The notes under the pieces were generated by a model that worked only from the letters and a program-made list of their open reading frames with translations, searched no databases and was not told where the DNA came from. From contig CM055096.1 in the NCBI GenBank assembly GCA_029204225.1, positions 31,868,305-31,932,304 of the forward strand: 64,000 bases of DNA, read 5' to 3'. The DNA is from Diphasiastrum complanatum. Lineage: Eukaryota > Streptophyta > Lycopodiopsida > Lycopodiales > Lycopodiaceae. Both the position numbers and the translations under genes were made by a program. Position 1 is the stretch's first letter, and each line of letters begins with the position of its first letter. This document shows, one piece after another, positions 3,000 to 64,000 of the stretch.

Positions 3000-4690
3000 T
3001 TTGTATAAACTCATTAATCTATGGTTAATTTTCTCGAGAGAAAAAAAAAATCTACATATACCTGTAGAAATCCGCATCCAGGTGAATGAAATTTTAGGTT
3101 TCTAACATGCCTTGCTTCTCTCATCATGTATTCACTTGTTATGGGTTGGGAGTGAGGTGTTGATCTTCTAAAGAGATTCATCTCTATTTGGTTCTGATTA
3201 GTCTATCTTGTGCTCCCTTCTAGCGTCATGTTAGTTAGTTTCTTGGAGTGTCATTATGTTGGTATCAAGGCAAGGCTAAAATGTAGATGGGATAATTACA
3301 AAAAAAAACAATTTTTACATTGATCTTTAAAGGAGGAAGCACTTGGATGTAGAAGCCAATTAGAGTGCTGATTCTCTCAAAGGAGAGATGTTGGATCTTT
3401 AGCACAAAGGAGCTTTCGTGCCCAAGACTAAGATCACTATAAACACAGACTATGCCATATCTTAATGCTCAGACATATGTATTGTCAGAGTAGGAGTGAG
3501 GCGGAGGAAGGGGGAATCCAGGCTCTCTTTACTTGAGCATAATGTTTCGATCTACAAATCCATCATGTTGTGGTTGGTTCAAATGCATTCAGTAGATTAT
3601 TGAAAATTGAAATTGATGTAGGAATACTAGGTTTGCCCACTTTGTGTTTTTGTGGCAAATGAGCAATTGCTGATGTGATGACAAACCTACAATTGTCAGC
3701 TGACAACTGTGAAAATTAAAAGGAGTGCCTTATGGAAGTAATCGTCGACTATAACCAACCGCCATAGCAAAGGACAAGGCGAAACCCTTGATGTGGTGGC
3801 CATCATCAGGAATATTCAAGAAGGAATCAGGCTGATTACAGGCGCATACATTCTATATGTTCAAACATCTGCATAAGTTTTAACCATCTTGTACTTCAAA
3901 TGCTTAAGGCTTCAGCTATTCTCGATTATATGACCTCGAATTGACAAATTATAGCCAACTGATCCAATAAATTATGTACTTCCACGTTGAACTTGTTGTT
4001 AGTATGTGCTCTCAATAATAACACTCATCAAATACTGAAGCACGACTACAACAAACAATTAAACTATCATAAATAAGCAAAATTATTGTCAATACATTGA
4101 TAGTGTAGAGTCATGATAAGTAGAATTATTGCCAATATATCTTGAAAGTCAGGTCATCCAAGACATGACAGTTCCGTAAATTTACAAGCCCCAATGACCA
4201 CTGCCACATGCGAAACCTTATGAGCTTGAGCTTCCAGTCTTCTATAAGACACTTCCAAGATCGCCTGTCGCCATCAATCAGCATCACCATTATGTGATGC
4301 TTTAGCTTGCAATCTTATCTCAATTGTCACTGACACAAGTGTCACAAAGTGAACCACTGAAAATCAAAAGCACTCTCAGATGCTGCATTAAAATACTATT
4401 GATCAAAGCTTTAACTGAAAATCTCACGGCTCCTCACTTGTTGCTGTGACGAAGAAAACCATCCAATAAAAAAGCAAAGTAAAGTAGTGCACTAAAATAC
4501 TCTAGACCAAAAATGATTGTAAAGATATTCCTTGTTCCACCAAGTGCAACAAAAGTCCTTGGGTCATGCTCAATCATTCAGGCCTAGATTTCAGACTGGT
4601 GCACATCGTGCATTGCATATGCCATAATCACTGATCACTGAAAAGCTCGTTTTTAACCATGCATACTAGCTTATTGGAAAAGTGAAGAGG
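3000..4690. other. Unannotated AT-rich stretch
   Basis: No ORF over about 60 codons with recognisable content. At 3259 a TGGTATCAAGGC string resembles a degenerate primer-binding site, but no LTR end was confirmed next to it. The following 1.4 kb could be untranslated leader or decayed gag of the gypsy relic that becomes readable from about 4.7 kb. That link is inference. Confidence 0.4.
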
Positions 4691-4712: not shown

Positions 4713-6001
4713 ATGCCATTGGATACAAGATGCACAGGCAGAGGAGCACAAGCAAAAGAAAAGTCAACAACACCTCTACCAGCAGAAGTACCAGTACCAC
4801 TAGTCGACTCCCCATTACGATCAGATCAAACTGACTGTTTGCACCATCATGAAGTACCATTTCACATGGGTGAGTCTGAGGTTCCACAATCGGGAGTGCT
4901 TGCAAGTTTGTTAGCTAGCCGCATGGACATATCCTTGAGAGAACTCATGCGGATGGCACCACAAGCAAAAAACATTATGACAAATTGGCTCAACTCATAG
5001 TTGGAACCAACCACAAAGGAGCCCTTATACTATACGGGCTACGAAGGAACAAGCAACGTCCTCCATATTGGGACAACGTGGGAAAGTGAAGAGCACAATA
5101 TCACCTTGCCAATCAAGCATAAAATATTTGAGGATGAAGCAGCAATGGTAGATGGTGGATCAGGTGTAAATTTGATCTCCACTATTTTTTCTTGTATCAG
5201 AAATGGGGTTTGCAAGGATTGAAACCAATAAAATTTGCCATCAATTCAATAGATCAATCTTGTGTAAAACCAAAAGGTGTAGTTGACGACATTCTAGTAA
5301 AAATAGCAGGAATGCAGTCTGTAATCACTTTTGTGGTGATGGACATACAAGAATCCCCTTCTGCATACCGCGTTTTACTAGGAAGACCTTGGTTGAGGAT
5401 CGCGCAACTGGTTCACAACTGGAGAACTGGAAAACTCACCTTAAAAAACAGAGAGCAGGCTGTAAAGGTTGATCCAACCACATGGGCGGTGAAACCAATT
5501 ACACCAAAAGCTGATGACGGATTGTCCACCACTGATCACACAATTGATCGCCCAAGGCAGGCCAAGGGATCTCATTACGACTCTGAAACAAATATCATGA
5601 GATGGACGGACGCATTGGCAATATTTGACTATATGGCTGGGCATGCTTGTCAACCGGATTCAAATCTAGAACCCAACACATCTTCACCCAAGTGTTATAC
5701 CTTAGACACACCAATCACTTTCGAGGTGAATATGATCAATGTAGCATGGTTGTCTATGGAAACTATTGAGGACCCTGTGGATGATGATTTAGTCCCTTGG
5801 CAACATGCTTTTACCTACAACAAGAAAACTGAGCTGATTGATGAGCAGGTCCTGCAACATATGGATCCAGATTGTTATGGAATGAGGAAAGTACCAGCTC
5901 AGCCACCTCAGAGATCGGCCATGGCAAAATTCTCCAAGATAGATCCACCCAAGACACCTATCAACAAGAAAAATCAGCTGAACAACGATATAGCCAGGTG
6001 A
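4713..6001 (+). pseudogene. Gypsy gag-protease region relic
   Basis: An ORF at 4713-5000 (95 codons) precedes ORFs 5001-5222 and 5192-6001, which together read as a retropepsin-like domain. The flap and core contain EAAMVDGGSGVNLIST, where DGG replaces the usual DSG/DTG triad, and the C-terminal half contains YRVLLGRPWL, the typical hydrophobic-GRPWL motif of plant gypsy proteases. A one-base frame change near 5190-5215 separates the active-site half from the C-terminal half. The remaining 170 or so codons form a poorly conserved linker. The protein would process Gag-Pol; here the reading frame is broken. Confidence 0.75.
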
Positions 6002-7455: not shown

Positions 7456-7810
7456 TTGGTCCATAGAGTTTATGTGCATACAGACGCATCAAAGTATGCA
7501 ATAGGAGTAGTCTTAACCCAGCTAGGAGAATACAAAAAGGATTTTCCAATCCGATTAATTACTAGCCAGCAGCTCAGTGATTTAGAGATAAACTATTCGA
7601 CCATCGAACGGGAGACACTGGCTATGATCTATGCGGTTAAGAAATTTTGACACTATTTGATGGCCACCCATTTTGCCTTTTATACGGACCATCAACCCTT
7701 GATTTACCTTGTAAATAAAACTTGCAACATAGGGAGGATCGCTCGCTTGTTACTTTTGTTGTTGGAGTTTGATTTTCGGATTGTCATGCGCAAGGGAAAG
7801 TAGCATTATA
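7456..7810 (+). pseudogene. Gypsy RNase H relic
   Basis: The ORF at 7456-7650 holds the RNase H entry motif YVHTDASKYAIGVVL and the helix with TIERETLAMIYAVKKF. In-frame stops follow KKF and, later, the RKGK segment; between them FYTDHQPLIYL is readable. The acidic residues are still visible, but the chain is interrupted. It closely resembles the minus-strand copy at 47.5-48.0 kb, which suggests one family. Confidence 0.8.
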
Positions 7811-8396
7811 TGGCAGATCATGTGACACAAATCAAGAGAAAGGAGACTTCAGCCCTACCTGATGATGAGCTACCAGATGATGCCTTATTTTACATTGACA
7901 TTGTACAAGAATGGGCTGCTGACATTGTTGAGTATCTTATGCGGGGCCAACCAGACAAATCCTTATCCAAGGCAGAACTGCGGAAGTTAAGTCTAAAAGC
8001 TCAACCTTATCAACTGATTGTCGACCAATTATATCGAATGGGAGAAGATAAAATCCTTTGAAGATGTATTCTTCCACACAAGGCCACCCACATTATTTCA
8101 ATTTCGCATGAAGGGGTGGCGGTCATTTTGCATCCGACATAACAGTTCGCAAAATCTTGCAATCAGGATGCTGATGGCCAACGATTCATAAAGATATGGA
8201 TGAATACTCGAAGAAATGCGATGTGTGCCAGAGAGCTAGAACACCAACACAATTGAACTATGACCTTTTACATCCAGTTCTAGCTCAAGCACCATTCGAA
8301 AAATGGGGATTGAACTATATCGGTCCAATTCATCCTGCTGCAAGAAGTTCACAAGCCTGATATAGTATCGTGGCCACGGACTATCTCACCAAGTGG
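7810..8396 (+). pseudogene. Gypsy integrase N-terminal part, truncated
   Basis: The 83-codon ORF 7810-8061 is the RNase H-integrase connection (ELPDDALFYIDIVQEW). Beyond it, in other frames, lies the zinc finger (GGHFASD, then KCDVCQRAR) and the core entry WGLNYIGPI. Plant gypsy integrases usually have WGLDFIGPI at that point, so the first catalytic Asp appears to be Asn. The reading stops at TDYLTKW, where foreign LTR-like sequence starts. Confidence 0.8.
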
Positions 8397-8865
8397 GAGT
8401 TAGAAATCATTTTTGATTTAATTCATTAGTATAAGCTCTAAATGTGATGATGTAATTATTGTACAATTTATTTGGTTTACTGTATATGGTTGTGATCGGG
8501 ACGTGACCCGTTAGGATATATTGATCGGGCACTGATCCCGTAGCTAGCTACTTGGGTTAGTCGAGTAGCCACACATAGGAAGAATTAGCCTGTACATAGT
8601 TATTTATAGTACTTGTTATACTTGGGGGCATGTCCCAAGTTTGTTGGTCGAATTTGGCCATATTGGGCCCGACCTTAGTTTGACAGGTGGTAGGCCAATT
8701 TTAGGACACCTGCCTTTTCATGTAGTTTTTGAATACTCTATATGTACAGTGTTTCTTTTAATCTATGAACTTTTGTTGTGCCATCTTTGAGAGCTTATGA
8801 CGAGTGGCTATGGTGATTGTGTGGTGTGATCTGCATACTACACTAGATTCTATCGGAATTTCAAC
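8396..8865 (+). mobile_element. 5' LTR of an uncharacterised element
   Basis: The segment ends just before a perfect TGGTATCAGAGC. It carries a promoter-like stretch near 8740 and a stem-like CTTGGGGGCATGTCCCAAG. Its left edge replaces the gypsy integrase sequence without a clean TG terminus, so the first bases may be missing. No matching 3' LTR was found downstream. Confidence 0.6.
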
Positions 8866-8866
8866 T

Positions 8867-8878
8867 TGGTATCAGAGC
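8867..8878 (+). promoter_or_regulatory. Primer-binding site (initiator Met-tRNA type)
   Basis: TGGTATCAGAGC is complementary to the 3' end of plant initiator Met-tRNA and lies one or two bases after the LTR end. This fixes the element on the plus strand. Confidence 0.75.
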
Positions 8879-11800
8879 TGCAGGGTGATGTAGGTATGCA
8901 CGATCTGCTGGAGCTATGGGATAGCGTCTTTCACCAGAAGAAATAGCACTCAAAGCGTCTAAGGAGAGAGGACTCCATACAAAGAGTATAGACAGTCTGG
9001 ATGGCTGGAGACAACAAAGTTCCTTCGATCGGAGCTTCGGGGAAGATAAGAACGATCGTCGTAGGTGGATTCCGGGGAGAATTCACAAAAAATCTTGCAG
9101 TTTCGATGGTTTCGGGGAAATCATCGGTGGTGGCTTAGTTATTCACTGTGTGGACAGTCGTTTGGTGCAACGGGGCTTGCAAGAGATTTGCAAAGAACAG
9201 TGACAGAGAGCCATAGCAATTTACAGGGTCAGATTGGGTGGAAAATTGAGAAAATTTTTCAGTTTCGTGGGGTGTTGAAGGATTTTTGAGAAAATCGACT
9301 TGTTTGCAGTCAATATCGCACCAATCAGAGAGCCGTAAATTGCATCGTATGCCTTGAGGGAGGGCAACCTCATCCAAGCAAAGAAATTGCAAGAAGAACC
9401 ACTAGAAAATGTGGAAAAATGCCCAAAATATCCTTCTCTTCAAAGTTTCTAGGGTTTACAGATGGAAAATCATGGATCTCTCTTTCCACATAACTATTTC
9501 TAGAGCTGTAAAAGGCCAGTCGAGGGCGCCCTGGTACTGTGAAGATGGCTGTAAGAGGCCGTGGGCGGCCATGGAGAGGCAAGGGAGATGGATCAATGTT
9601 TAGTGGTGGCTGCCATAGCAAGGAGCAAGAAAAACCTTGCAAAGATGAGGAAGAAGGGAGGATGGAGCGCGGACAACACTCGCGAACGTCCAGCCCTGTT
9701 GGAGCGCCAGCGTATTGAGGGTGCTAGCGAACTTAGGAATATTCTTCGGTGCGCAGGGGTAGGCAGAGCCGTAGGATGAGGCTCCATCAAGATCGACGGC
9801 TGATATTAAATACTCGGAGAGTATTGTGAGCCTTTGGATGGTGAACCACCATTGGATGGTGAGATAAAGGGCTCATGAAAGGTTGAAGGGGTCTAAAGGG
9901 CCAGTGGGGCCTTCAACTTCAACAAAAATTTTTAGTTTAAAATACTGGAAGGGACCCGAAGTCCAGAATGGACTTTACTTCATTAAAAATCCTCAAAATA
10001 AAGATACAGTTCATTTTTGCAAGGCAAATTGGTTTTGGGGCTATCTTTGGCTAGAGGGCACCTTTTTTGGCCATCCTTGGGCCAAAATTACCTCTGAAAT
10101 TGGCTGCTCAGAGCCAGCAGACAGTGCAATGTCATAGAGCAGGGAGAAACATGTTTCAGGGTGTTTTCGTCACCATTCTATTGAGCAGAGTGCGGGTGAT
10201 CTACTGATGGGCTACATTCGCTATTTGGGTACCGTAGGGCCAAATTTGGGGCTATTTTTGGCTAGTGAAACCTGCTACAGGGCAGTATATTGAGGCATTA
10301 TTGCTTCAGAATCATTACTACCTACTCTTGACAGGGTAACAAAGTGTTTGGAGGTGGTAAATGCAGTATGGGGGCGAATGGTAGTGGAATTGTGTGGAGA
10401 AAGCTAGTTTTTGGCGACGGAAGTGCAGTTTGGCGATGTGACTACTCATCATTGGCAACAATTTTGAGAGGGCAAGCAATCATTGGTGAGAGATAGGCAT
10501 GGTATGCCGGTTACAGGTGAGAAAATCTTGTGATCAGGTTCAACTCTTGGGGTTCAAACCAACCAACATCAAGTGGCACTTTGGGCGAACGCTCTCACAA
10601 GCATGATCGGCAGTGGCATTGTCGAGTCAGGTGATAGCTACATTGACACACGCATCTGTATCTTGGAAATTTTTCTTTCGGAGGTAAATATGAGCTAGCT
10701 TGGAGGTATACACATTTTGGTGGTCACAGGTGATGGAAGTGCAAGGTGGTGCCAGTTGGAAGCCATTGGGCAAGATAGCGGACTTGCATTGGATGAGTTG
10801 TGTGTGGGACACACAGAGGATGAAGAAAGGGTCAATAATCACACTTTGGAGACTCTTGGTGAGTGGTGAGTGTGATGATTTTGCGATTTTGCAGTCGGTG
10901 AGTCAATTTTGATCAAGCCATTTTAGCTGTGGAGCAGTGTATCAGGTTTGTCATCGGAGAGATACACTTCAACTGCCTATTCTAGGTAAGTCAAGTCAAT
11001 TTGCCATATCAGTATTGCATCAGGGATGCAGATTCCAATGATGACAGGGTGTAGATCGTTTGATTTGGGCCATGGAAGATTCCACAGGTTCACTTGGAGG
11101 GATATTGGCATGCACAGTCATGTGAGGGACTTGATGTTGGCTTTGGAGTTTACATCTCAGTGTATTCTCAGGAAGTGGCTTGGAACCATTCATAGGAACA
11201 GCTTGGAGCTAGTTTGGGGGAATACAGCTGGGCACTACAGAGTAGATGCTTGGATCTTTGTGATCAAGGATGGCATTGGAATACCTAGTAGCGATAGCAC
11301 TGCAGGATGACATGGGATGATCATCAAGGGGCAGCTATTTCATATTGTACTTGAGTCATTGGCATGGACATGACTTACAGGTGGGATTCATGATGGAATC
11401 ATAAAGTTGCAAATCCAAATGGGCAAAGTGTGAAGCTTCGAGAGCCAGCTCTATGTTGGAGAGCTGATGGAGATTGCACACTTGGGTGTGATCGGAGGGA
11501 AAACACTATGGTGAGTGTTTTGCTAGTGATCTACTATACGGGACACTGATGGCGAGGATTTCATGGTGTGCTCATTTGGGAGTACAGGTTGGCATTACAG
11601 CATGAGGCCAGTCATTGGCATTGGCATTGATGGGGAGGCATCCACCATCACATGTGTGGATAAGCTATCTATAGCTTTCATGCATTTGGTTGTATTTGCA
11701 GGAGTCTAGGCTTGGAACAGGTGTTGGAATTTCCATGGTGTAGATTCTCAGGTGGTGAGATCATGGGAAAGCCTGGAGGAAGTCACTCAGAGCCATATAC

Positions 11801-51384: not shown

Positions 51385-52039
51385 TGTGAAAAATACAGAT
51401 CCTAAGTGGATCTAAACTCCAAGATCATTGGCTTGAATGCTTGCACTCCAAACTACATAAGCTAGGAATTGGCAACACATTCTATGCTACCTAGAATGCA
51501 AAGAACTTGATCCAAAAGCATTTATCACAAATGGAAACTTCCATAAACATCAAGTGCGGCCCAAAATAGCATTATACAGTCCATAATACATCAGCCTACC
51601 ACTTTTGGAAAGCACCTAAGATCATACACAATAGCTTGAAGACAATACACACAACAATGCTCTCAATGGAGGAAGAAACAATGACAATGATCTATTGATC
51701 TCAATGAAGCATACAAAAGGTTTCTCCAACCTGTTCTCCACGACTTCCCTACTATTTATGGATGAGGAAGATGACTCTCTCTCCTCTCTCTAGAAGGTAC
51801 TTGACCCTAGATATTCCCTATATAGGAAAAATAGCCAAAAATGGCTTATATGACCAAAATACATCAAAATGGTCTCATTTTGAAGGGTATGAAGTTTGAC
51901 ACTTCATCATACTGAAAAAATACAGTAAATAAAAACATTGTGGCCTGGTTCACACGTGTGAAACTCCAGAACCAAAACTATTTACAATTTTAGCCAATTT
52001 AGGCCTCAAACTAGCTAGGAAATGTTGACAATTTTCACA
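51385..52039 (-). repeat. 3' LTR (left copy), 655 bp
   Basis: In plus orientation it begins TGTGAAAAATACAG and ends AATTTTCACA. It contains the CACACGTGTG palindrome at about 51951-51960. A TATATAGG string near 51820 is the likely promoter region. Confidence 0.96.
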
Positions 52040-55000
52040 CTCCCTCTTCAACATTGGATGCTAGTTTCAACATAGTCTTTGAGCACATTCCAAGATTAGA
52101 TCTATGCATTAAATATAGGTCCTTTCCCAATGGTTTGGTGAAGATATCAGCCACACACTCCTTTGAAGAGACATGTTGAAGCTCCACCTCTTTGGCAATG
52201 ACTTGATCTCTCACAAAATGGTGAGCAATCTCAATGTGCTTGCTCCTTGCATGAAAAACAGGATTGCTTGCCAAGCTTTGGGCTGAAAGGTTATCACAAA
52301 GTATGATTGGAGTCTTCTCTGGTTCCAGCAAGTGAAGATCCAATAACATCCTCTTGATCCAAAGAATCTCCTTGGTGCATGTTGTTAATGCCTTGTACTC
52401 GGCTTCGGTGGAAGATAGAGAGATAGTTGGTTGCTTCTTTGATAGCCATGAGACCACTCCATCTCCAAGATAGATTGCAAAGGCACTTGTTGACTTCCTA
52501 TCCATTTGATCACCTGCAAAATCTGAATCTGAAAATCCACAAAGGTTAGGTGTAGTACCTCCATACAAGATGCCAAAATCTCTAGATCCCGAGATGTATC
52601 TAAGTACTCTCTTTCCTAGCTTCCAATGAGCCTCACTAGGATCTTGCATAAATTGACTTAGTTTACCAACCACAAAGCTTAGATCAGGTCTTGTGATGGT
52701 TAACCATATAAGAGATCCTATTAGCTTTCTATAGAGAGTAATGTCCTTGAAGGATCTTTCATTACTTCTTGTAGTTAGCTTTACATTTGATTCCATAGGA
52801 GTAGAAACAACTTTACAATCTTCCATATGAAACCTTTTTAGAATAGAGTTAACATACTTTTCTTGACATATGAATGTAGATTTAGAAGTTCTAATAATCT
52901 CTATTCCTAAGATATAATGAAGTTTACCAAGATCTTGAATTTCAAACTCTCTTTTGAGTGCCATCTTGATTTCATCTATATCTAGATTGTTACCACCACT
53001 TAAGATAATGTCATCAACATAGATCAAAAGTAAAGTGATATCATTTTCATTCAATCTAAAGTAGAGAGAATGATCATACTCACTCATAACAAAGTTTTGA
53101 GAAAGTAAGAAGGAATTGAGCTTAGCATACCAACTCCTTGGTGCTTGCTTTAGCCCATACAAACTCTTTTGGAGATAGCACACATGATTAGGCTCATCAT
53201 GTGAAACATAGCCCTCGGGTTGCTCCATGTAAATATCTTCTTCAAGATCACCATTCAAGAAGGCATTAGTAACATCCATTTGCCACATATCCCAATCATA
53301 AAGAGTTGCAAGAGAGATTAGGATTCGAATAGTTACCATCTTTGCCACGGGTGCAAAGGTCTCATCATAGTCAATACCATATTCTTGAGCATACCCCTTT
53401 GCCACCAACCTTGCCTTGTACTTGTTGATTGATCCATCTTGATTTGTCTTGATCTTGAAGATCCAGTTACAACCAATTGCCTTCTTGTCCTTTGGAAGCT
53501 TTACCAACCTCCATGTGTTGCTTTTGATGAGTGCTTGATGCTCATGATCCATGGCTTGGATCCATTCCTTCTTTTGAATTGCTTCACCTACACAAGTTGG
53601 TTCATCAAAAGAGGTAAGAAAAGCAAGGTTAGAGTTGTCCACCACTTGCTTTCCTTTTTCATCATAGGTTAGCCTTGATGGCTTAGCCCTTTGCCTTTGA
53701 GTCTTCCTTGAAGTTTGCTTTGGAGTGGCATCTCCATCTTCATCCAAGACATCTTGCACATCATGATGATTAGTAGGCACATCAACATCAACATCAACAA
53801 CATTGGAAACATTCTCTTCATGAAAGATGACATCCCTACTTATGACAACTTTCTTTGTAGAAGGAATGTACACTTTGTAAGCCTTGCTTACTTCACTATA
53901 GCCAACAAACACACCCTTCTTTGATGAAGGATCTTCTTTAGTTCTATCATCAAGTGTGATATTGACAAAACATGTACATCCAAAGATCCTACAATGCTTG
54001 ACACTCAGCCTTCTACCATAAAGAACCTCATGAGGAGTTTTACCATCCAAGGAAGCACTTGTCCATCTATTACATAGATAGTTAGCACATGCTAAAGCTT
54101 CCCCCCAAAAAGACTTAGCAAGATTAGCATGTAGTCTCATTGCCTTGGCACATTCACAAAGGGTTCTATTCTTCCTCTCGGCCACTCCATTCTGTTGTGG
54201 AGTCCTAGGACTAGACATCTCCCTCTTAATCCCATGTGCTATACAAAAGTCTTTGAACCTATTTGAGGTGTATTCCCCTCCATTATCAGATCTTAAGCAT
54301 TTGATCTTTGTATTGAATTGGTTTTCCATTTCATTCTTGAACTTGACAAATGCAGCAAACACTTCATCCTTACTTTTAAGAAGATAGATCCAAGTATACC
54401 TACTAAAGTCATCAATGAAAGTTGCATACATCTTTGCCCCACCATTGCTAGTTGTACTAGAAGAATGAATATCAGAATGCACAAGTTGAAAAGCTTCTTT
54501 AGATCTAGAAGTAGATCTAGAATAAGCAAGTCTATGAGATTTGGACAAGGCACAATGTTCACAAACACTATTGTTTGCAACAAGACTTTTAGGGAGACCA
54601 AGAACAAGCTCTTTCTTTGCCATTACCTCCAAAGATTTGAAGTTGGGATGGCCCAACCTCTTGTGCCAAACTTCTTGGTTTGTCAATTGCTCCCTAGCCA
54701 TACATCCTTCATGATTAGAGATCACACATGCATCAAGCTTGAAAAGTTTACCATGCCTCCTACCTTGAGCAATCAAGGATCCACATTTACTTATCAAACA
54801 TGCATCTCCAATGAACTCCACATCAAGTCCTTTGTCAATCATTTGACTTACACTAAGCAAATTCTTAGTGATTGAAGGAATGTACAAAACATTTTCAAGA
54901 TTTGCTTTCCTATTTGTTGAAAGGGAAATAGGAATAGTGCCTATGCCTTTGATGTCACATTGACCATCATTTGCAGTGTAGATGATGTTACCTTCTCCCT

Positions 55001-55988
55001 CATAAGACAATAAGGATGTAAAGTATTCCTTATGTCTTGTCATGTGAGATGAGGCTCCACTATCAATCCACCAAGGATCATTATCATCTATGTTGGCTAA
55101 CAAACTTGAAGTCATAACAAGTGATTCACATGTGTTATGTTCTTCCTCATCTATTGTAAGATTTCCTTGCCTCTCTCCTTGCTCTCTTTTCTTCTTATAA
55201 CATTCATTTGCAAAATGACCTTTTATCCCACAATAAAAGCACTTGAACTTTGACTTATTGTTCTTAGTAGAAGAGGAAGAGGAAGAGTGATCATCATGAT
55301 CAAAGTTACCACCTTTGGACCATTTCCCTTTGCCTTTACCTTTGCCCTTGAATTTGCCTTTTGTGAAGAAAGCCTCTTCACCTCCACCTTGCAAGGATGC
55401 ACCATCAAGCTTTGATTGCAACCTATGTTCTTCAGCCAATAAGATTTCTTGCAAGTCAACCACACTTGGCAAGACTCTTTGAATGGCAAAACTTTGCACA
55501 AGGTTAGCATGTTCATTTAGCAAACCATTCAACATAACTTGGACTATTTCACCATCTTTTATGTTCTCATCAATGCATGCTAAATCATCACTTAGGGACT
55601 TAACTCTCAAGATAAATGCATGAGCACTTTCACCCTCTCTTTGCCTACTAGAAAATATTTGTCTCCTTAGGGTCAATACCCTAGATGTGGACTTTGATTC
55701 AAAGAGCTTCTTTAAGGCATTCCATGCCTCACTTGCACTTTGACACTTTCCAACTTCCTTGAGAAGTTCATTTGTAACATTCATTTTAATGATATGAAGA
55801 GCCCTTTTGGCCTTCTTATCAAACCTTTGTTGCTCTTGAAGTGTGAGAGGTCTCTCTTCAATTTCTGCAACTATGTCCATGAGTTCATTCAACTCAAGTA
55901 AGGACTCCATCCTCACTTTCCAAGTAGAGTAGTTTGATGAACTCAACCTTTCACTAGACTCTAGCATGATCCCACCATTGGAAGCCAT
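52035..55988 (-). CDS. Gag-Pol polyprotein of the intact copia element
   Basis: 1317 residues with every expected domain in order. Gag occupies 1-200, followed by a Gly/Lys-rich linker. The zinc knuckle is C250, C253, H258, C263. Protease has Asp309 in WWIDSGASSHM. The integrase zinc motif is H442, H447, C476, C479, and its core is Asp506, Asp568, Glu604. RT has Asp905 (QMDVTNAF) and YVDD at 990-993. RNase H has Asp1154, Glu1197 and Asp1232. The polyprotein would build particles, copy the RNA and insert the cDNA. All catalytic residues are present and there is no stop or frameshift. Gag and Pol share one frame, as usual in plant copia. The last codons (EEGV) are read from the polypurine tract and the stop lies inside the LTR. 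Confidence 0.97.
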   Translation of the reverse strand: MASNGGIMLESSERLSSSNYSTWKVRMESLLELNELMDIVAEIEERPLTLQEQQRFDKKAKRALHIIKMNVTNELLKEVGKCQSASEAWNALKKLFESKSTSRVLTLRRQIFSSRQREGESAHAFILRVKSLSDDLACIDENIKDGEIVQVMLNGLLNEHANLVQSFAIQRVLPSVVDLQEILLAEEHRLQSKLDGASLQGGGEEAFFTKGKFKGKGKGKGKWSKGGNFDHDDHSSSSSSTKNNKSKFKCFYCGIKGHFANECYKKKREQGERQGNLTIDEEEHNTCESLVMTSSLLANIDDNDPWWIDSGASSHMTRHKEYFTSLLSYEGEGNIIYTANDGQCDIKGIGTIPISLSTNRKANLENVLYIPSITKNLLSVSQMIDKGLDVEFIGDACLISKCGSLIAQGRRHGKLFKLDACVISNHEGCMAREQLTNQEVWHKRLGHPNFKSLEVMAKKELVLGLPKSLVANNSVCEHCALSKSHRLAYSRSTSRSKEAFQLVHSDIHSSSTTSNGGAKMYATFIDDFSRYTWIYLLKSKDEVFAAFVKFKNEMENQFNTKIKCLRSDNGGEYTSNRFKDFCIAHGIKREMSSPRTPQQNGVAERKNRTLCECAKAMRLHANLAKSFWGEALACANYLCNRWTSASLDGKTPHEVLYGRRLSVKHCRIFGCTCFVNITLDDRTKEDPSSKKGVFVGYSEVSKAYKVYIPSTKKVVISRDVIFHEENVSNVVDVDVDVPTNHHDVQDVLDEDGDATPKQTSRKTQRQRAKPSRLTYDEKGKQVVDNSNLAFLTSFDEPTCVGEAIQKKEWIQAMDHEHQALIKSNTWRLVKLPKDKKAIGCNWIFKIKTNQDGSINKYKARLVAKGYAQEYGIDYDETFAPVAKMVTIRILISLATLYDWDMWQMDVTNAFLNGDLEEDIYMEQPEGYVSHDEPNHVCYLQKSLYGLKQAPRSWYAKLNSFLLSQNFVMSEYDHSLYFRLNENDITLLLIYVDDIILSGGNNLDIDEIKMALKREFEIQDLGKLHYILGIEIIRTSKSTFICQEKYVNSILKRFHMEDCKVVSTPMESNVKLTTRSNERSFKDITLYRKLIGSLIWLTITRPDLSFVVGKLSQFMQDPSEAHWKLGKRVLRYISGSRDFGILYGGTTPNLCGFSDSDFAGDQMDRKSTSAFAIYLGDGVVSWLSKKQPTISLSSTEAEYKALTTCTKEILWIKRMLLDLHLLEPEKTPIILCDNLSAQSLASNPVFHARSKHIEIAHHFVRDQVIAKEVELQHVSSKECVADIFTKPLGKDLYLMHRSNLGMCSKTMLKLASNVEEGV
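52040..52052 (-). promoter_or_regulatory. Polypurine tract
   Basis: The minus strand reads GTTGAAGAGGGAG directly before the LTR TGTGAAAA. It doubles as coding sequence for the last residues of the polyprotein. Confidence 0.85.
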
Positions 55989-57148
55989 GATTCTAATGTT
56001 TCTTCAACTTTTAGGTTCTGTCCTAAAGCACTTAGCACTCACTTTTCTCTCAACAAATGATAGATAAAGAGATCTATGAAGATTTAGGACCCTAAAACAC
56101 TTCTATCTTGAACCTAGATGGTTTCCAAGCATAGAAAGGAAGATTGAAACACATGCAACACTTTGCACACACTAAGAATGGATTACAAAATCAAACCAAC
56201 CTGAACACACTCTTGCTTAAGCTCTCAAACTTTCCAGCAAGTGACCAAATCAAGTTATGGTGTGAAGAGTTACTTGCATTCTTAGAAAATACCCAAAACT
56301 AGGATGCCAAGATTACCTAGTAATGAACAAACTTGATCAACATATGATCAACACACTAAGATATTGATTCAACCTGTAAAACCACATGTAAACCACACTT
56401 CTAAAAGTTTATAAACTCCAGCAAGTGATAAATACAAGATTTAGAGGTGAATGAATGAGCACACTTAGTGAATCACAAGACTAGCTTCACTATCTTGTCA
56501 AATCTTGGTGTTTAGATGTAGATCTAAGATCACTTCACATGAGAATGTTCCTCAACCTGTTAAGAACCTGAAAACACACTTGCATAATGGTTAACACCTT
56601 CCAGCAAATGCTCCAATCAAATTACATAAGGAGAGTTACTTACATGCTCAACAAAGTACACCAAAATTTATGCCAAAATTGATGACAATCTTTACAATAT
56701 GCTCTTCACAATGGAGCTTACAATATGTTCACCCAAAAAAGGGGATCTTTCATCCAAATGGGAGCTTTGCTCAGCCTTTAGGAGAATTACAACTCACTCA
56801 AAAGAGCATTTGTCATCCACTTAAGGAGAAGTTTCATCCACTTAAGGAGAGTGTTCATCCAAGAATGGAGATTGTCAACAATAGGATTGAAAAGAACATT
56901 GTTAGTATTGAATATGCACAAGCCTCACAATCACAAATGATTAGGTGTTATGATCTGATCCAAAATAGTTTCTTTTCAGCCTCTGATCTTCAATAGACCT
57001 GAAATATGCTTTTGATCCACAAGTTCAACTCACAAAACAAAGGTTAGTAAGATTTGATCAACAAAGCAATGCAAAATCATGCTAGAACTTGATCAAACAT
57101 CCAAATATCACCAAAAATGGAATACTTACTGTAAATAGAAGCCAACCA
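55989..57148 (-). mobile_element. Untranslated leader of the intact copia
   Basis: 1160 bases between PBS and start codon. Related blocks recur three times with 'CAACCTGT' and 'CCAGCAAGTGA' cores (about 56200-56240, 56370-56430, 56555-56610). A 108-codon opposite-strand ORF (56670-56996) has HPKKG/HPLKE repeats and is probably chance. Confidence 0.7.
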
Positions 57149-57820: not shown

Positions 57821-58572
57821 CACTTTTACATTTTTTCACTATTGATCAATTCATCATGAAAGAATGTCACCATTTTCTTCCTATCATTGATCTTAAACGT
57901 GTAAAATTAAAAGCATGTATATTTACATTGCATAATTATCTAGAATGGTGTACAATCCAAAGAATTTTCAAGAATAATTCACAAAATTAACCTTCACTTT
58001 ACGTAATATATTAACGTTGAAAAACCTAATGCAAGAACTTGGCGAATGTGCTTATGCACGAACTTGATGAATTTGCTAGTGATCTTTATTGGATTTGTTA
58101 CGTCCATGTCCAGTATGTGGGATTCGGATAATTCTTGATATGGATAGCCGATCACTCCAGTGTATTTTAATTGAAATGTGGAATCTGGTCATTTCTTTAT
58201 ATAGCTACAATCTTTGTGTGTAGCATTCTCATTCCAATCACCAAAACTCTCTAAATTTTTGGATCAAATTTGGAAGGTGTCTATAGCACAAACCTTCCAA
58301 TTCTACAAAGTGGTCTATGGGTGGGATTATTGAAAAGACCTTCTACGCAATCATCATTTTTAAAAGTTTCAATGAAGTTCTCTTAAGAGGCACAAATAGG
58401 TCCTTCTTTTTAGCTTTTCCACCATTGATGATGGATGGTCGACTAATTTTTCAAAATTTTGGATTGAAGCAATTGTTAATGAGCCCTTGCATATTCCAAT
58501 TGTTGGTGAGAAAATATCATCAACTTTACATTTAGCTACATTTTGAAAAGTTATCTGTTTGATCTCATGTAA
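57821..58572. other. No gene seen
   Basis: AT-rich with no coherent ORF. It continues the DNA left of the copia insertion. Confidence 0.45.
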
Positions 58573-58669
58573 AATATGAATATAATGCTTCTTGGTTTCC
58601 AAGGGAAGGCTCGAACTTGAGACCAAAGAAACTTTGGATGTCAAGCTAACCAATTGAGCCAACTCCCTT
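58573..58669 (-). mobile_element. tRNA-derived SINE-like unit
   Basis: On the minus strand it begins GGGAGTTGGCTCAATTGG, containing an A-box-like TGGCTCAATTGG. About 35 bases later is a B-box-like AGTTCGAGCC (consensus GGTTCGANTCC). This is the internal Pol III promoter arrangement of tRNA-derived SINEs. The TTCTTGGTTTCC tail follows. A true tRNA gene is unlikely, as no full cloverleaf forms by eye. Confidence 0.55.
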
Positions 58670-58676
58670 GGGTTAA

Positions 58677-58759
58677 AGTATGAATATAATGCTTCTTGGT
58701 TTCCAAGGGGAGGCTCGAACTTGAGACCAAAGAAACTTTGGATGTCAAAATAACCAATG
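58677..58759 (-). repeat. Second, truncated copy of the SINE-like unit
   Basis: TATGAATATAATGCTTCTTG through AAACTTTGGATGTCAA repeats the first copy with two or three changes but lacks the A-box end. The two copies are eight bases apart. Confidence 0.75.
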
Positions 58760-59228: not shown

Positions 59229-60250
59229 CTAATGGAACTTGGTCAGAATCAGAATTCCCTGAATCTCTAAATATGAGTTGCCACAAATTCTAGGAACGCT
59301 CCCTCTAAGCTCATGCTGAACATCAACAATTTCAAGCTCACTAAGCACATTCTCATATTTGAATTTTTTGCCATCTTTAAAAGGTTCAGCAATAATATTC
59401 ATTGCAGCCATTTTTTGAATCTCCATGGATTGATCATATCTTCGATAAGAGTTCTCATTACGATGACCTATAATAGCCATTCCAACTATAGTAGGTGCGC
59501 CTGCTTAAATTATCCTAAAACAAACACAAACAAAAAAACAGAAATAAGACGGTGCAAACAACTTAACACAATTACAAAAACACAACAATAACAGAAGTAT
59601 TAATTTGTTAACCTCTGAATACTTGCATAACGAAGACTTTTATTCATGAATCCTCCCCCATCTCCAAGTACGGACATCATTCTCTTTATCCAACAGCTTA
59701 AAACCTTCAGTCCCACATTATTACTATTGTACCATGCATTGCTTTGAGGATTTCCTCGTATAGCTTGCAAAAAACTATGATGACCAACAATAGGATTCTG
59801 TTTTGCTAGATCTTCTCGAATTGTGTCATAGAAGCACTGTGGTTTTTAGAATCCCTCTCAGAATACCTAAATTAACATTTAAAAAATCAATTCAAAATTT
59901 ATGCTACCAAAATATAAAGCAATATAATCCTAAAAAACAAGCTGGACTTGTTGAGCAATTACAAAACAATACAACTAATTCAAAAAAATCCAACATTCTA
60001 CAATAAAAACTTACACAACAAAAGAACCATGAACATCACATCCTTCTTGAAAATCGACATCAAGTAAATTGTACAATTTTATGTGTCCGCGAACCATAAA
60101 ACGACTCAAATAGTAATAACACCATCGTTTCTATAAACCAATAGCATGATGTATAGAACGTTCAGGATCTTTTAAACACTCTTCCTCATCCTTCCACATC
60201 ATAGGCGCACTCTTCTTTTGTTTCTTGTTAGCTCCAGATTTAATAGACAT
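59229..60250 (-). pseudogene. Tyrosine recombinase-like relic (Crypton/DUF3504 type)
   Basis: Three exon-like blocks. Block 1 (60250 to about 60014) gives DPERSIHHAIGL, a TAG, KRWCYYYLSRFMVRGHIKLY and DVDFQEGCDVHGSFVV, then a GTAAGT donor. Block 2 (about 59856-59614) opens YSERDSK and, after a one-base slip in an A run, PQCFYDTIREDL, NAWYNSNNVGLK and FMNKSLRYASIQR. Block 3 (59500-59229) gives APTIVGMAIIGHRNENSYRR and YDQS. VRG with its Arg, NKSLR (usual NHSLR), GHR and the following Tyr correspond to the R...H-x-x-R...H/R...Y signature of tyrosine recombinases. Such enzymes cut and join DNA through a covalent Tyr link. One stop, one slip and a phase mismatch at the last junction mark it as a relic. 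The first His of HxxR is Lys. Confidence 0.62.
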
Positions 60251-60770
60251 AAGAGGAGTTCTCAATATCAAAAAGACCCTTTAAGGAATGCCATGTGGGA
60301 TATACAAAAATATCAAAATAAATAAAACAATATTGTTTATTTGCTTGCCCACACCACTCCCAAGGCCTCCCCAACTCCCAATGATCTAATCACAGTGTCT
60401 ATAGTCATAGTTAAGAACTGTTAACAGTTCACAGTATAACTTGACTAAATTCAAAAATATTCCCTCCATTGGTTACGAAAAGGGCTATATTTTCACTGGA
60501 TCTAGAATATGACCGCCATTCCCAAATTCGAATCAGAAAAAATTGCAAAATGTTTACATATGCATTCCTTCCACGAGAATGGAAATATGAGCGCCAACTA
60601 CCTATTGGAATGAAAAAATGAGCGGCATTTCCAAATTTGAATCAAGAATACAAGCATGGAGATTGGATTGATCGTACATAGTATATAATATAATCAAAGA
60701 TGAGTATTTTGTTTTGTTTCATAGAATCTGGTCATAGTACTTTGATGCAACTGATTACTCTATTATTTTT
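60251..60770. other. Shared intergenic region between two divergent transposase-like relics
   Basis: About 520 bases separate the minus-strand recombinase-like relic from the plus-strand DDE-like relic. There is no ORF. If both starts are right, it would act as a bidirectional promoter. No clear TATA box was settled on for either side, and further upstream exons cannot be excluded: CTTTGCAG at 60825-60832 could be a splice acceptor. Confidence 0.35.
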
Positions 60771-63284
60771 TTGATGATGACATTATATCATCTACATGTG
60801 GATATCCCTGTTGATTTGGCACCTTTGCAGAGAAGAGGAGGCAAAGGAATTCAAATATCTGCTGAAGATCGTTCTCGTTACAGGGCAGAAGGAAAGAAAA
60901 ACGTGGATTTGTGGACAGATGGAACATTATATCCACAAGATCCAAGCACTTTGACACATCCCACATTCTCTTCAATAACTCATTTAGTTACATGGATATG
61001 CAATGGGCATAGTGGATTACTAGGATATTGTGAAAGATTGCAAAACCATGGAAAACAACTTTATATGAATAAAGTTCACTTTTTAGAAGGTGAGTTAATT
61101 CGGATATCCTCTTATTGTCAGAATAGAAATTGTCATCCCCAAAAGACGTTAGAAGAAAATGAACAACTTAAAAAAAATAATGAATCATTACAAAAGATAG
61201 CAACCAATATCAAATCAGAACTAGAGCAAATGCAATCAGTCTTCAGTCTATTCGTATTGAAAACTTACAATTACTGAAGGATGTGGATTTGGTAAAGAAG
61301 AAGGCTGAAAGTAAGAAGCAAAAGCGACAAAGTTGCGAGGATATTCAAACGCTTTCAAAAGGAGGTTATCGAAATAGAAGGATCTGTGCATTCAAGTAAG
61401 CATATTCTAAATTTTGTAAGTTTTTCAATGACATTTGGATTTAATTTCAGCTATGGTGATATTCTGTTAACTATCTGTTTTTTTTCCAGATCTGCATTAG
61501 TAGCTCCTCGGAATATTAAAGACAATGCTTCACTAGGAATGTCATTGGACACAATATTGACTTGCAAATCCATTGAGCGTATCATGATGAACAATAGGAT
61601 TTCAAATGTAAAGTGTAAAATAGCAGAGTCTTTGATGGTGGACATTCAAAATATTTTAGATAAGACTATAGTTCAGGGTGCTTGTGATTTTGCAGGTATT
61701 AGTAGGGAAGCATATGCAACAATATTTAAACTAATTAGAGAAGCTTTTAAGCAAGTTCAAATTAGAAAAGTCCCAATCCCTAGGACATACCACTTGAAGA
61801 AAGAGAGGGATACATTAAACATAGGTATGCGTAAGATCACTGGAACTCCATTTCATATTGAGAAGGTGTATGAAACTGATGGAAGATCGATATTCTATAA
61901 TTCATCAAGCAATTTATTTGTTGATCTAAATTACTTGCTGAGATACATCGACACATTCTATGATATAACCTATGAAAAGGTGAATGGCAAAATAATCATA
62001 GTACTTAAGTTAGATGAGTCCGAAATTGTGAAAGGGCAGAAGATGGAAAGGGTTAGTATAACTCTCATGAATGGTGCTCTATCCCAAACAGAGAACCAAG
62101 AAGATTTAAATTCAGTGTCTAGTCAGAAAATGATATATGGTGGTTGGCAGCGTTTCAGGTAACTAGCCTCATTATTACATTACATTCATTGAATAGTATA
62201 AATACATTGTAAACTAAGTATGATTAATTCTTTGGACAGGTGCTAAAAGAGGATCATGATATATTATCATGGATATTCTCAAGGACATCTTATCCTAGGA
62301 TCATCAAGGGCCATATGGATGGAGGATGTCTCAATGTTCCAAGAGTTGGAGACTTCAATGTTGAATGGCACTTAGCAGGTGATTTGAAAACATTGAAATG
62401 TATGTATAATGTCTCTCATGGTGCTACATCAAAACACCCTTGTTTGTACTGCATGAAAATGGCAAAAGATGTAACTAGGAGTACAGGAATTACTAGAGAT
62501 AATGCAGATCCAAACTGGAAGCCTGTGCTGTCTATCCCCTTAAAAAATGTGCATGTTTGCACTTTTCATGCAGATTTTAGATTAATAGAAAAGATCATTT
62601 ATCTTCATATAGTTTTTGCTTGGAATACTAAGCCAACATCATTAGCACAAGAAGCTATCTCTCGATTAGAAGATGTTTTTATCAAAAGCAGGACTCCATA
62701 AAGGACATGTCAAAATTCAAAAAGATGAAAAGCTTTCAGGAAAGAATGGGAACATGCCAACTAAGCCAAGCATAGGAGGAGCAAAAGCACGTCGTTTTCT
62801 ATCAAATCATACTGGTAAGGCTTCACTCTGATATTGATAAGAAAGCTGTCCAAAGGACTTGTGTCGAGTTTGTTAATGCAATATCAAAAGCATGGGGAGA
62901 AGGTCACATCACTCATTACATGGTTAGTATAAAATTTTGAAAATGCTTTCAAATTTTCATATATATTTAGATCTAAACATAAGACTAACATTATGATTTT
63001 GACATATGCAGCACATACTAAGAGATCATACAACATTTTTTGCAAACACATATGGAAGCTTGAGTGTATGGTCATTACAAGGGATGGAGAAGTCACACTG
63101 GCAAGCACGAGCAGCATTTCATAGAAATACACAACATGGAGGAACCAATGAAAAACGAAACTACATTTGTCAATTGTTTCAGTGGTTCTACCGTAGAGTT
63201 CAGATTCGACATATAACAAAGTCCACACAATACAACAAGTTTAGAAAAGCATGCAAGTTCATACAGGAAGAGAAAATTAGATGA
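60771..63284 (+). pseudogene. DDE transposase-like relic with RAG1/Transib-type motif order
   Basis: Exon-like blocks: 60771-61395, intron 61396-61489 (GTAAGC...CCAG, in phase), 61490-62158, intron to 62239 (GTAACT...ACAG), 62240-62922, intron 62923-63011 (GTTAGT...GCAG, in phase), 63012-63284. The N-terminal part has a coiled coil (LEENEQLKKNNESLQ). Candidate catalytic acids are Asp at 62013 (LKLDESEI, then RVSITLMNG), Asp at 62381 (HLAGDLKT) and Glu at 63087 (LQGMEKSH). CLYC (62441-62452) follows the second Asp by 20 residues. GHITHYM joins across an intron to HILRDH, an HxxxxH pair. RAG1 and Transib have the same order and very similar spacing, including a zinc site of CxxC plus HxxxxH. 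Frame breaks near 61230, 62158, 62680 and 62815 indicate decay. It could also belong to another RNase H-fold transposase family with a CxxC insert. Confidence 0.6.
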
Positions 63285-63470
63285 TTGCTGAGTAGAAGAT
63301 CATCATGACATGTTCAGAATTGCTTTGCAAATTCATTGAACAAGAGAGGAGCAATACCCAATGTAAATGTATTGATTGTATTATACAAAGTGTCAACTAT
63401 TCATCATCAGATCTTGTATCAGATTCTATGGTAGTATTGTTATGAAGAAATTCTCTACTAGCGTATGCAT

Positions 63471-64000
63471 CTAATAGATGTGCATTATCCTATTTCCACT
63501 AAGCTCAATATAAGTGGAATACAATGAATAATGGGAGCTCCTTAAAGGAACATTCCCATCAGTAAAGCCTAAAATGTTCAAAACATAAGATCTTTTGACA
63601 AAAATGATCTTATTTGTCTTAACAAATTTATGTCCTCCTAAATAAAATGATAAAGCTTTAACTGCCATTATAAGACTCTCCCCGACTAGGCTCAGCTTGG
63701 AATGAGCAATACAGATCTCATTCTTCAAGAAATGCCGAAGATAGTGGCCCAGTCCATTGTCCCTCTGGAACGAGGATGCGTGTTGTCTGAAACCACCTCG
63801 TATCGCAGCAAAATCATCTATTATGAGAGAATCCTGCAATAGGAAATATGTTAGCAAAAACACATTCAGTGATTGAAAACATTCAAATGCAAGGAAGATT
63901 AAACACTTACACATTCTTTATCATCAGCAACAACCAGATCAGGATGATCAATATAATGACCACATACTGAAGTGAAATCATCAGTGAAATGCATTAATGA
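63471..64000 (-). CDS. Unrecognised spliced gene, 5' part outside the window
   Basis: The terminal exon is 63833-63471 (acceptor ATTGCAG) and reads DSLIIDDFAAIRGGFRQHAS, then LGHYLRHFLKNEICIAHSKL and LSFYLGGHKFVKTNKIIF, ending NRIMHIY and a stop. The previous exon runs from beyond 64000 to 63911 (SLMHFTDDFTSVCGHYIDHP, then DLVVADDKEC) with a GTAAGT donor. Both sides are phase 0. No stop interrupts either exon. I do not recognise the family. It lies in the same block as the two transposase-like relics and might be a cargo or accessory protein of one element, or an ordinary host gene. Confidence 0.5.

Follow-up and report, generated by a model that had tools for sequence, protein, structure and literature searches.

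The window analysed here is a stretch of 64,000 nucleotides of the Diphasiastrum complanatum genome, at positions 31868305–31932304 of the contig designated C5. The gene marked in it (positions 60771 to 63284, plus strand) had originally been predicted to be a transposase relic with a RAG1/Transib-like layout of catalytic and zinc-site residues. The gene is part of a larger element, which has inverted ends and extends beyond the window. We interpret it, with a probability of about 0.8, as a single decayed copy of an interspersed DNA transposon, with a transposase predicted to adopt the RAG1/Transib fold. The portion of the transposon within the window spans 60248–64000 on the plus strand; homology to other copies begins at 60247/60248, and empty sites agree with both borders. 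The right end, where homology to the other copies stops, corresponds to window-equivalent position 69492, which is position 5597 of the sequence L029 and position 9993 of the window copy's own extended sequence.

The transposase gene comprises about 790 codons interrupted by three introns, and encodes a D-D-E triad together with C(2)C and H(4)H motifs. Exon 1 (60771–61395, with a putative 5′ limit) covers the N-terminal and coiled-coil region and is frameshifted in the window copy; protein alignment reveals relatives with a matching N-terminal region. Intron 1 (61396–61489, 94 bp) is followed by exon 2 (61490–62158), which carries the first catalytic Asp (codon 62013–62015) in the motif KLDES at about 62010. 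Intron 2 (62159–62239, 81 bp) precedes exon 3 (62240–62922), which contains the second Asp (codon 62381–62383) in GDLK at about 62378, the CxxC motif (CLYC, 62441–62452) 20 residues further on, the sequence CTFH, which reads CTLH in other copies, and ITHYM. Exon 4 (63012–63284), beyond intron 3 (62923–63011, 89 bp), contains the HxxxxH motif (HILRDH, 63012–63029), the catalytic Glu (codon 63087–63089) within GSLSVWSLQGMEKSH, and the stop codon (63282–63284). KLDES, GDLK, CxxC, the junction of ITHYM and HILRDH at 62922/63012, and GSLSVWSLQGMEKSH had been pointed out in the original prediction and were found as described. The second His of HILRDH lies 20 ungapped residues before the Glu, which equals the spacing of H942 and E962 in mouse RAG1, whose reference sequence was confirmed against PDB chains.

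All introns of the window copy have GT..AG boundaries, and they number three rather than the two of the original prediction. Exons were sliced across 21 rows (the window copy and L009–L028), in which 53 of the 63 introns retain GT..AG and ten rows show one decayed splice end. Many relatives show an apparent read-through into an intron immediately after ITHYM, at the place of intron 3, when the alignment is read by eye. Frameshifts disrupt the window copy, as does a 138-bp deletion within exon 3, between 62824 and 62825, of bases that other copies contain. The most open transposase frame belongs to L028, with a single internal stop in about 790 codons; its catalytic Glu is replaced by Gln, the same change (E962Q) that is used in listed RAG1 structures.

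A search of the genome (1.74 Gb in 5176 contigs) with 2 kb of the gene yielded 75 matches at 40 or more places, the window included, with scoring limited to the best 40 of the 4541 first-look candidates. The long matches of this search are 93–97% identical. Exceptions are the window itself and a copy on contig C1231 that is 99% identical, flanks included, and is probably another haplotype. Searches with the element ends gave 1867 and 1945 first-look candidates, of which the best 40 each were scored; the figures are not copy counts and suggest that the element family is large. Flanks are common to L013 and L014, to L017 and L018, to L021, L022 and L023, and to L024 and L026, and the copies are therefore not all separate insertions.

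The left border falls at 60245–60248 in 17 of 19 further copies (L010–L028), and homology starts only at 60523 in L015 and L016. The right border was obtained in three of the four copies extended rightward. Prediction of the right end in another 20 copies located it in one of them, and wider stretches of ten more copies provided three, one duplicating a copy that had already been counted. Comparison of the ends defines a left terminal inverted repeat of about 35 bp at 60248–60282 (plus strand). In the other copies, the inverted 35-bp ends read 5′-CATTAGAGGAGTTCTCAATATCAAAAAGACCCTTT inward from either end; the matched ends start with 5′-CA and finish with TG-3′, and the left end of the window copy starts CATAAG where ends elsewhere start CATTAG. 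Copies in the genome and terminal inverted repeats, which the original prediction proposed to look for, are present; the 5-bp target-site duplication (TSD) that it linked to Transib was seen in none of eight copies.

The transposase belongs to a conserved protein family. The joined translation of L028 matched 24 proteins at E ≤ 1 (best 5.9e-122), and an alignment-based search, which scored the best 7999 candidates by common words, retrieved at least 71 proteins at E ≤ 0.001. Exact patterns were counted in 74 proteins, many of them partial: 44 carry the KLDE-type motif, 65 the WHxAxDLK-type motif, 68 CxxC and 68 HxCTxH. The relatives come mostly from sequence sets tagged lgn, ena, jgi or ncbi. 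One of them, P0024, from the fern Adiantum nelumboides, is a predicted protein that carries a piece of the transposase. This piece is joined to a DUF7794 domain (Pfam PF25070) in what may be a gene fusion, a pseudogene or an annotation error. In viral contigs, 109 pattern matches were found, none of which was confirmed.

Structural evidence comes from the predicted model of another relative, P0002. Its fold matched solved structures with E values down to 1.7e-11, all 24 matches at E ≤ 0.001 fell into one group, and solved RAG1/Transib structures ranked well above other transposases. The catalytic D-D-E residues, C(2)C and H(4)H occur in the same order as in RAG1/Transib and with similar spacing, and the predicted fold supports the RAG1/Transib-like reading of this layout. 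Sequence comparisons against the PDB gave RAG1 among the matches at low scores. A 96-residue C-terminal piece, a composite of several copies, placed RAG1 in ranks 1–3 with E values of 0.75 to 1.4, which are not significant, and the other two matches at 1.6; with a four-sequence profile, 14 of 17 matches were RAG1 (E 0.29 to 1.4), although agrin ranked first at 0.17. That a degenerate frame merely happens to contain RAG1-looking motifs would accord with such weak scores, but it is scarcely credible in view of the conserved protein family and of the fold matches; the presence of the gene at many places of the genome also speaks for more than chance.

Several results weigh against the assignment to the RAG1/Transib fold. 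The link to RAG1 is unproven by sequence alone: the A2 profile had no matches in the PDB, and hhalign against RAG1 gave a score of 26.0 (probability 2.8%), compared with a mean of 16.1 for 71 shuffles, one of which scored higher, and with 19.6 for reversed RAG1; with the whole alignment, the RAG1 score was 19.5. The modelled protein is the relative P0002 and not the window copy, and the region of the Glu has a low predicted local distance difference test (pLDDT) score. The ratios of nonsynonymous to synonymous substitution rates (dN/dS) have medians between copies of 0.76–0.80 in the transposase and 0.66 in the histone region described below, as would be expected if most copies are decaying. 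Pfam gave no transposase family on the four exon pieces of the window, nor among 25 of the 76 rows for 49 family members.

The fold search also cannot separate Transib from CACTA relatives, because to our knowledge no CACTA/EnSpm transposase structure has been solved. The element could be an ordinary plant CACTA/EnSpm transposon, or belong to another lineage of the CMCT clade, with the RAG1 match reflecting a fold common to the whole clade. CACTA elements are common in plants, and CMCT-type features occur in the element: C(2)C and H(3–4)H lie between the second D and the last E, and the ends are 5′-CA..TG-3′. The Transposase_21 (CACTA) family, however, is absent from the same 25 Pfam rows, and, as in RAG1, the Glu follows the second His by 20 residues within a GSxxxWxxxGxE context, a spacing that is larger in CACTA. 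A TSD was found in none of eight copies, compared with the 2–5 bp typical of the clade. We consider that it is an ordinary CACTA or other CMCT element doubtful, and retain the reading of a transposon with a RAG1/Transib-fold transposase.

Both ends were available for eight copies: the window copy, L012, L018, C14:27617941, C3743 (L019), C6:74952734, L010 and L020. Flanks compared by eye showed no TSD of two or more bases beside the ends in any of the eight; the nearest misses were the C14 and C3743 copies, in which two of the three bases adjoining the ends agree. A search with the joined flanks of the window copy gave 39 candidates and 42 matches, of which 23 cover nearly all 300 bases and span the junction. 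Because many of the 23 cluster on C5 and C22, they are not independent. All ten empty sites that were fetched are continuous through the junction AATAGA|C, with scattered substitutions and no bases gained or lost, and the insertion of the window copy therefore neither duplicated nor removed target bases. The element family seems to insert without the usual target-site scar. In a possible mechanism, two transposase subunits would pair the element ends, cutting would proceed via a nick and a hairpin, as by RAG1 and Transib, and both ends would be joined directly opposite one another in the target, leaving no duplication.

The published systems closest to the element differ from it in several respects. 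Transib and RAG-like elements generate 5-bp duplications (PMC7204232, PMC9435367), and Transib has a single gene (PMC7204232). The element has several open reading frames (ORFs), no TSD and other ends than HzTransib; two features of RAG-like and Transib elements are missing from it, the 5-bp TSD (none of eight copies) and a CAC heptamer-like start of the inverted repeat (its ends start CATTAG). Compared with the RAG1 core and ProtoRAG, with their 5-bp TSDs and CAC-type ends, it further differs in that no RAG2-like gene was recognised and a histone H3 ORF is present, and the sequence similarity is not significant. Membership of the Transib superfamily is favoured by the predicted fold and motif layout and by the 39 potential Transib-like proteins that Tao et al. 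(2022) report from plants (PMC9435367), but it fails already on the TSD and the ends, and we judge it quite improbable. With those 39 proteins on record, finding a relative of Transib in a plant is no novelty as such; besides Tao et al., no paper listed in searches of the open-access literature describes a plant RAG-like element in its title or abstract opening.

The CMCT clade defined by Kojima in 2025, which includes EnSpm, Mirage, Chapaev, Transib, Plavaka, ESTA and Lanisha, shares C(2)C, H(3–4)H and 5′-CA..TG-3′ ends with the element, a likeness in features, and differs by its 2–5 bp TSDs (PMC12730594). Spy, of the PHIS superfamily, also combines cut-and-paste transposition with TSD-free insertion, and the absence of TSDs is described as what distinguishes it from every other group of DNA transposons (PMC4482050). 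It has a transposase related to PIF/Harbinger and prefers AAATTT, whereas the element has a predicted RAG1 fold and AAATTT was absent, by eye, at the junctions of the eight flank pairs. We class the element, at the level of its predicted fold, with the RAG1/Transib-fold transposons, as a variant that lacks TSDs.

Outside the window and inside the element, at window-equivalent 65728–66714, lies an ORF with an H3 fold. It matches the Pfam family Histone PF00125 with 91.9 bits (cut-off 26.4; E 4.7e-26) and H3 chains in the PDB with a best E value of 2.5e-21. Besides the window copy, 16 of 19 others contain the ORF as fetched, and L018 does once extended (L017 and L018 as fetched end short of it); none was seen in L027. 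In three of four copies tried, the protein is 51–54% identical to canonical plant H3, 46–51% to two plant CENH3 sequences and, across 92 residues, 55–57% to Cnp1 of fission yeast, with L025 lower, and in a tree it occupies its own long branch; several of the reference rows for the identities and the tree were entered by hand. LLIP, EAAEDY and KDF are common to the element H3 and CENH3 (Arabidopsis), and an origin from CENH3 is neither adopted nor dismissed.

Canonical H3 starts (M)ARTKQTARK. The element H3 starts MDRRKQTRR, which in alignment keeps K4, whereas the positions of K9, K27 and K36 in its tail hold no lysine. The K9 place is occupied by Asp in most copies, by Asn in the window copy and by Glu in L025. 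The K4-aligned lysine is the sole lysine ahead of the fold in the window copy, with one extra each in L010 and L012.

The H3 ORF may be a passenger, captured by chance as part of a host gene and unused by the element. In favour of this, the ORF contains stops or frameshifts in many copies, its dN/dS of 0.66 is as given above, and a homolog search found two matches (P0075 and P0076), neither of them a transposon-borne relative, and gave no sign that other elements carry an H3; the H3 part of P0075, from Forsythia, reads as CENH3 to us. On the other side, the ORF lies inside the element in most copies examined, its first 125 codons are free of stops in the window copy, L011 (frameshifted), L024, L025 and L026, with common flanks in L024 and L026, and the protein is far from ordinary H3 and nonetheless keeps the fold residues. 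We give a passenger role somewhat less than an even chance. More speculatively, the element H3 might be deposited on or near element DNA and weaken silencing there, and we hypothesize that it blocks silencing. A separate RAG1-fold lineage with a zero-base stagger, hence no TSD, and its own H3 lacking K9, K27 and K36 to keep its chromatin open would combine these proposals; as a whole, we regard it as unlikely. Chromatin genes are known from DNA transposons of fungi (PMC12730594), and the carriers of TET/JBP in fungi and of SET in Phytophthora resemble the element in this respect. Their cargo consists of enzymes acting on epigenetic marks, in contrast to a histone. Among the papers listed in searches of the open-access literature, no title or abstract opening describes a transposon with histone H3 cargo.

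Further open frames of the element lie on the minus strand, in pieces, at positions 3228–4690 and 7539–8821 of the window copy's own element. The first of these corresponds to a second element protein that occupies 63471–63917 and runs on past the window; its pieces, taken from another copy, had no Pfam match. Neither kelch nor PHD domains were found by Pfam in the other element ORFs, which are broken and were scanned in pieces. In L017 and L018, about 760 bp of the element are tandemly duplicated across the minus-strand ORF, and L011 (with L030) contains, at about 7900–10100 of the element, an inserted sequence with a reverse-transcriptase-like frame, as judged by eye.

The element sits inside a multicopy gene-like sequence, represented by 59229–60247 (minus strand) of the window and by L029 from position 5598. 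The interrupted gene left of the element recalls, presumably, a Crypton-type tyrosine recombinase (GHRNENSYRRY), an unconfirmed resemblance with no Pfam match. Further to the left, a single open frame of 1322 codons (52035–56003, minus strand) reads by eye as a Ty1/copia polyprotein, and is therefore probably a retrotransposon that inserted recently. An approximately 85-bp direct repeat at 58570–58654 and 58674–58758 appeared as secondary matches in the comparison of copies.

RAG1 rearranges the antibody genes of vertebrates, and its origins are usually traced via animal elements. A family with a RAG1-like predicted fold and active-site layout, a piece of which occurs in a fern genome, would add material on the origin of V(D)J recombination. 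If true, duplication-free insertion by a RAG1-fold enzyme would mean that this fold is not tied to a strand-transfer spacing of five bases. A transposon-borne H3 with a rewritten tail, if it acts as proposed, would represent a new kind of anti-silencing means.
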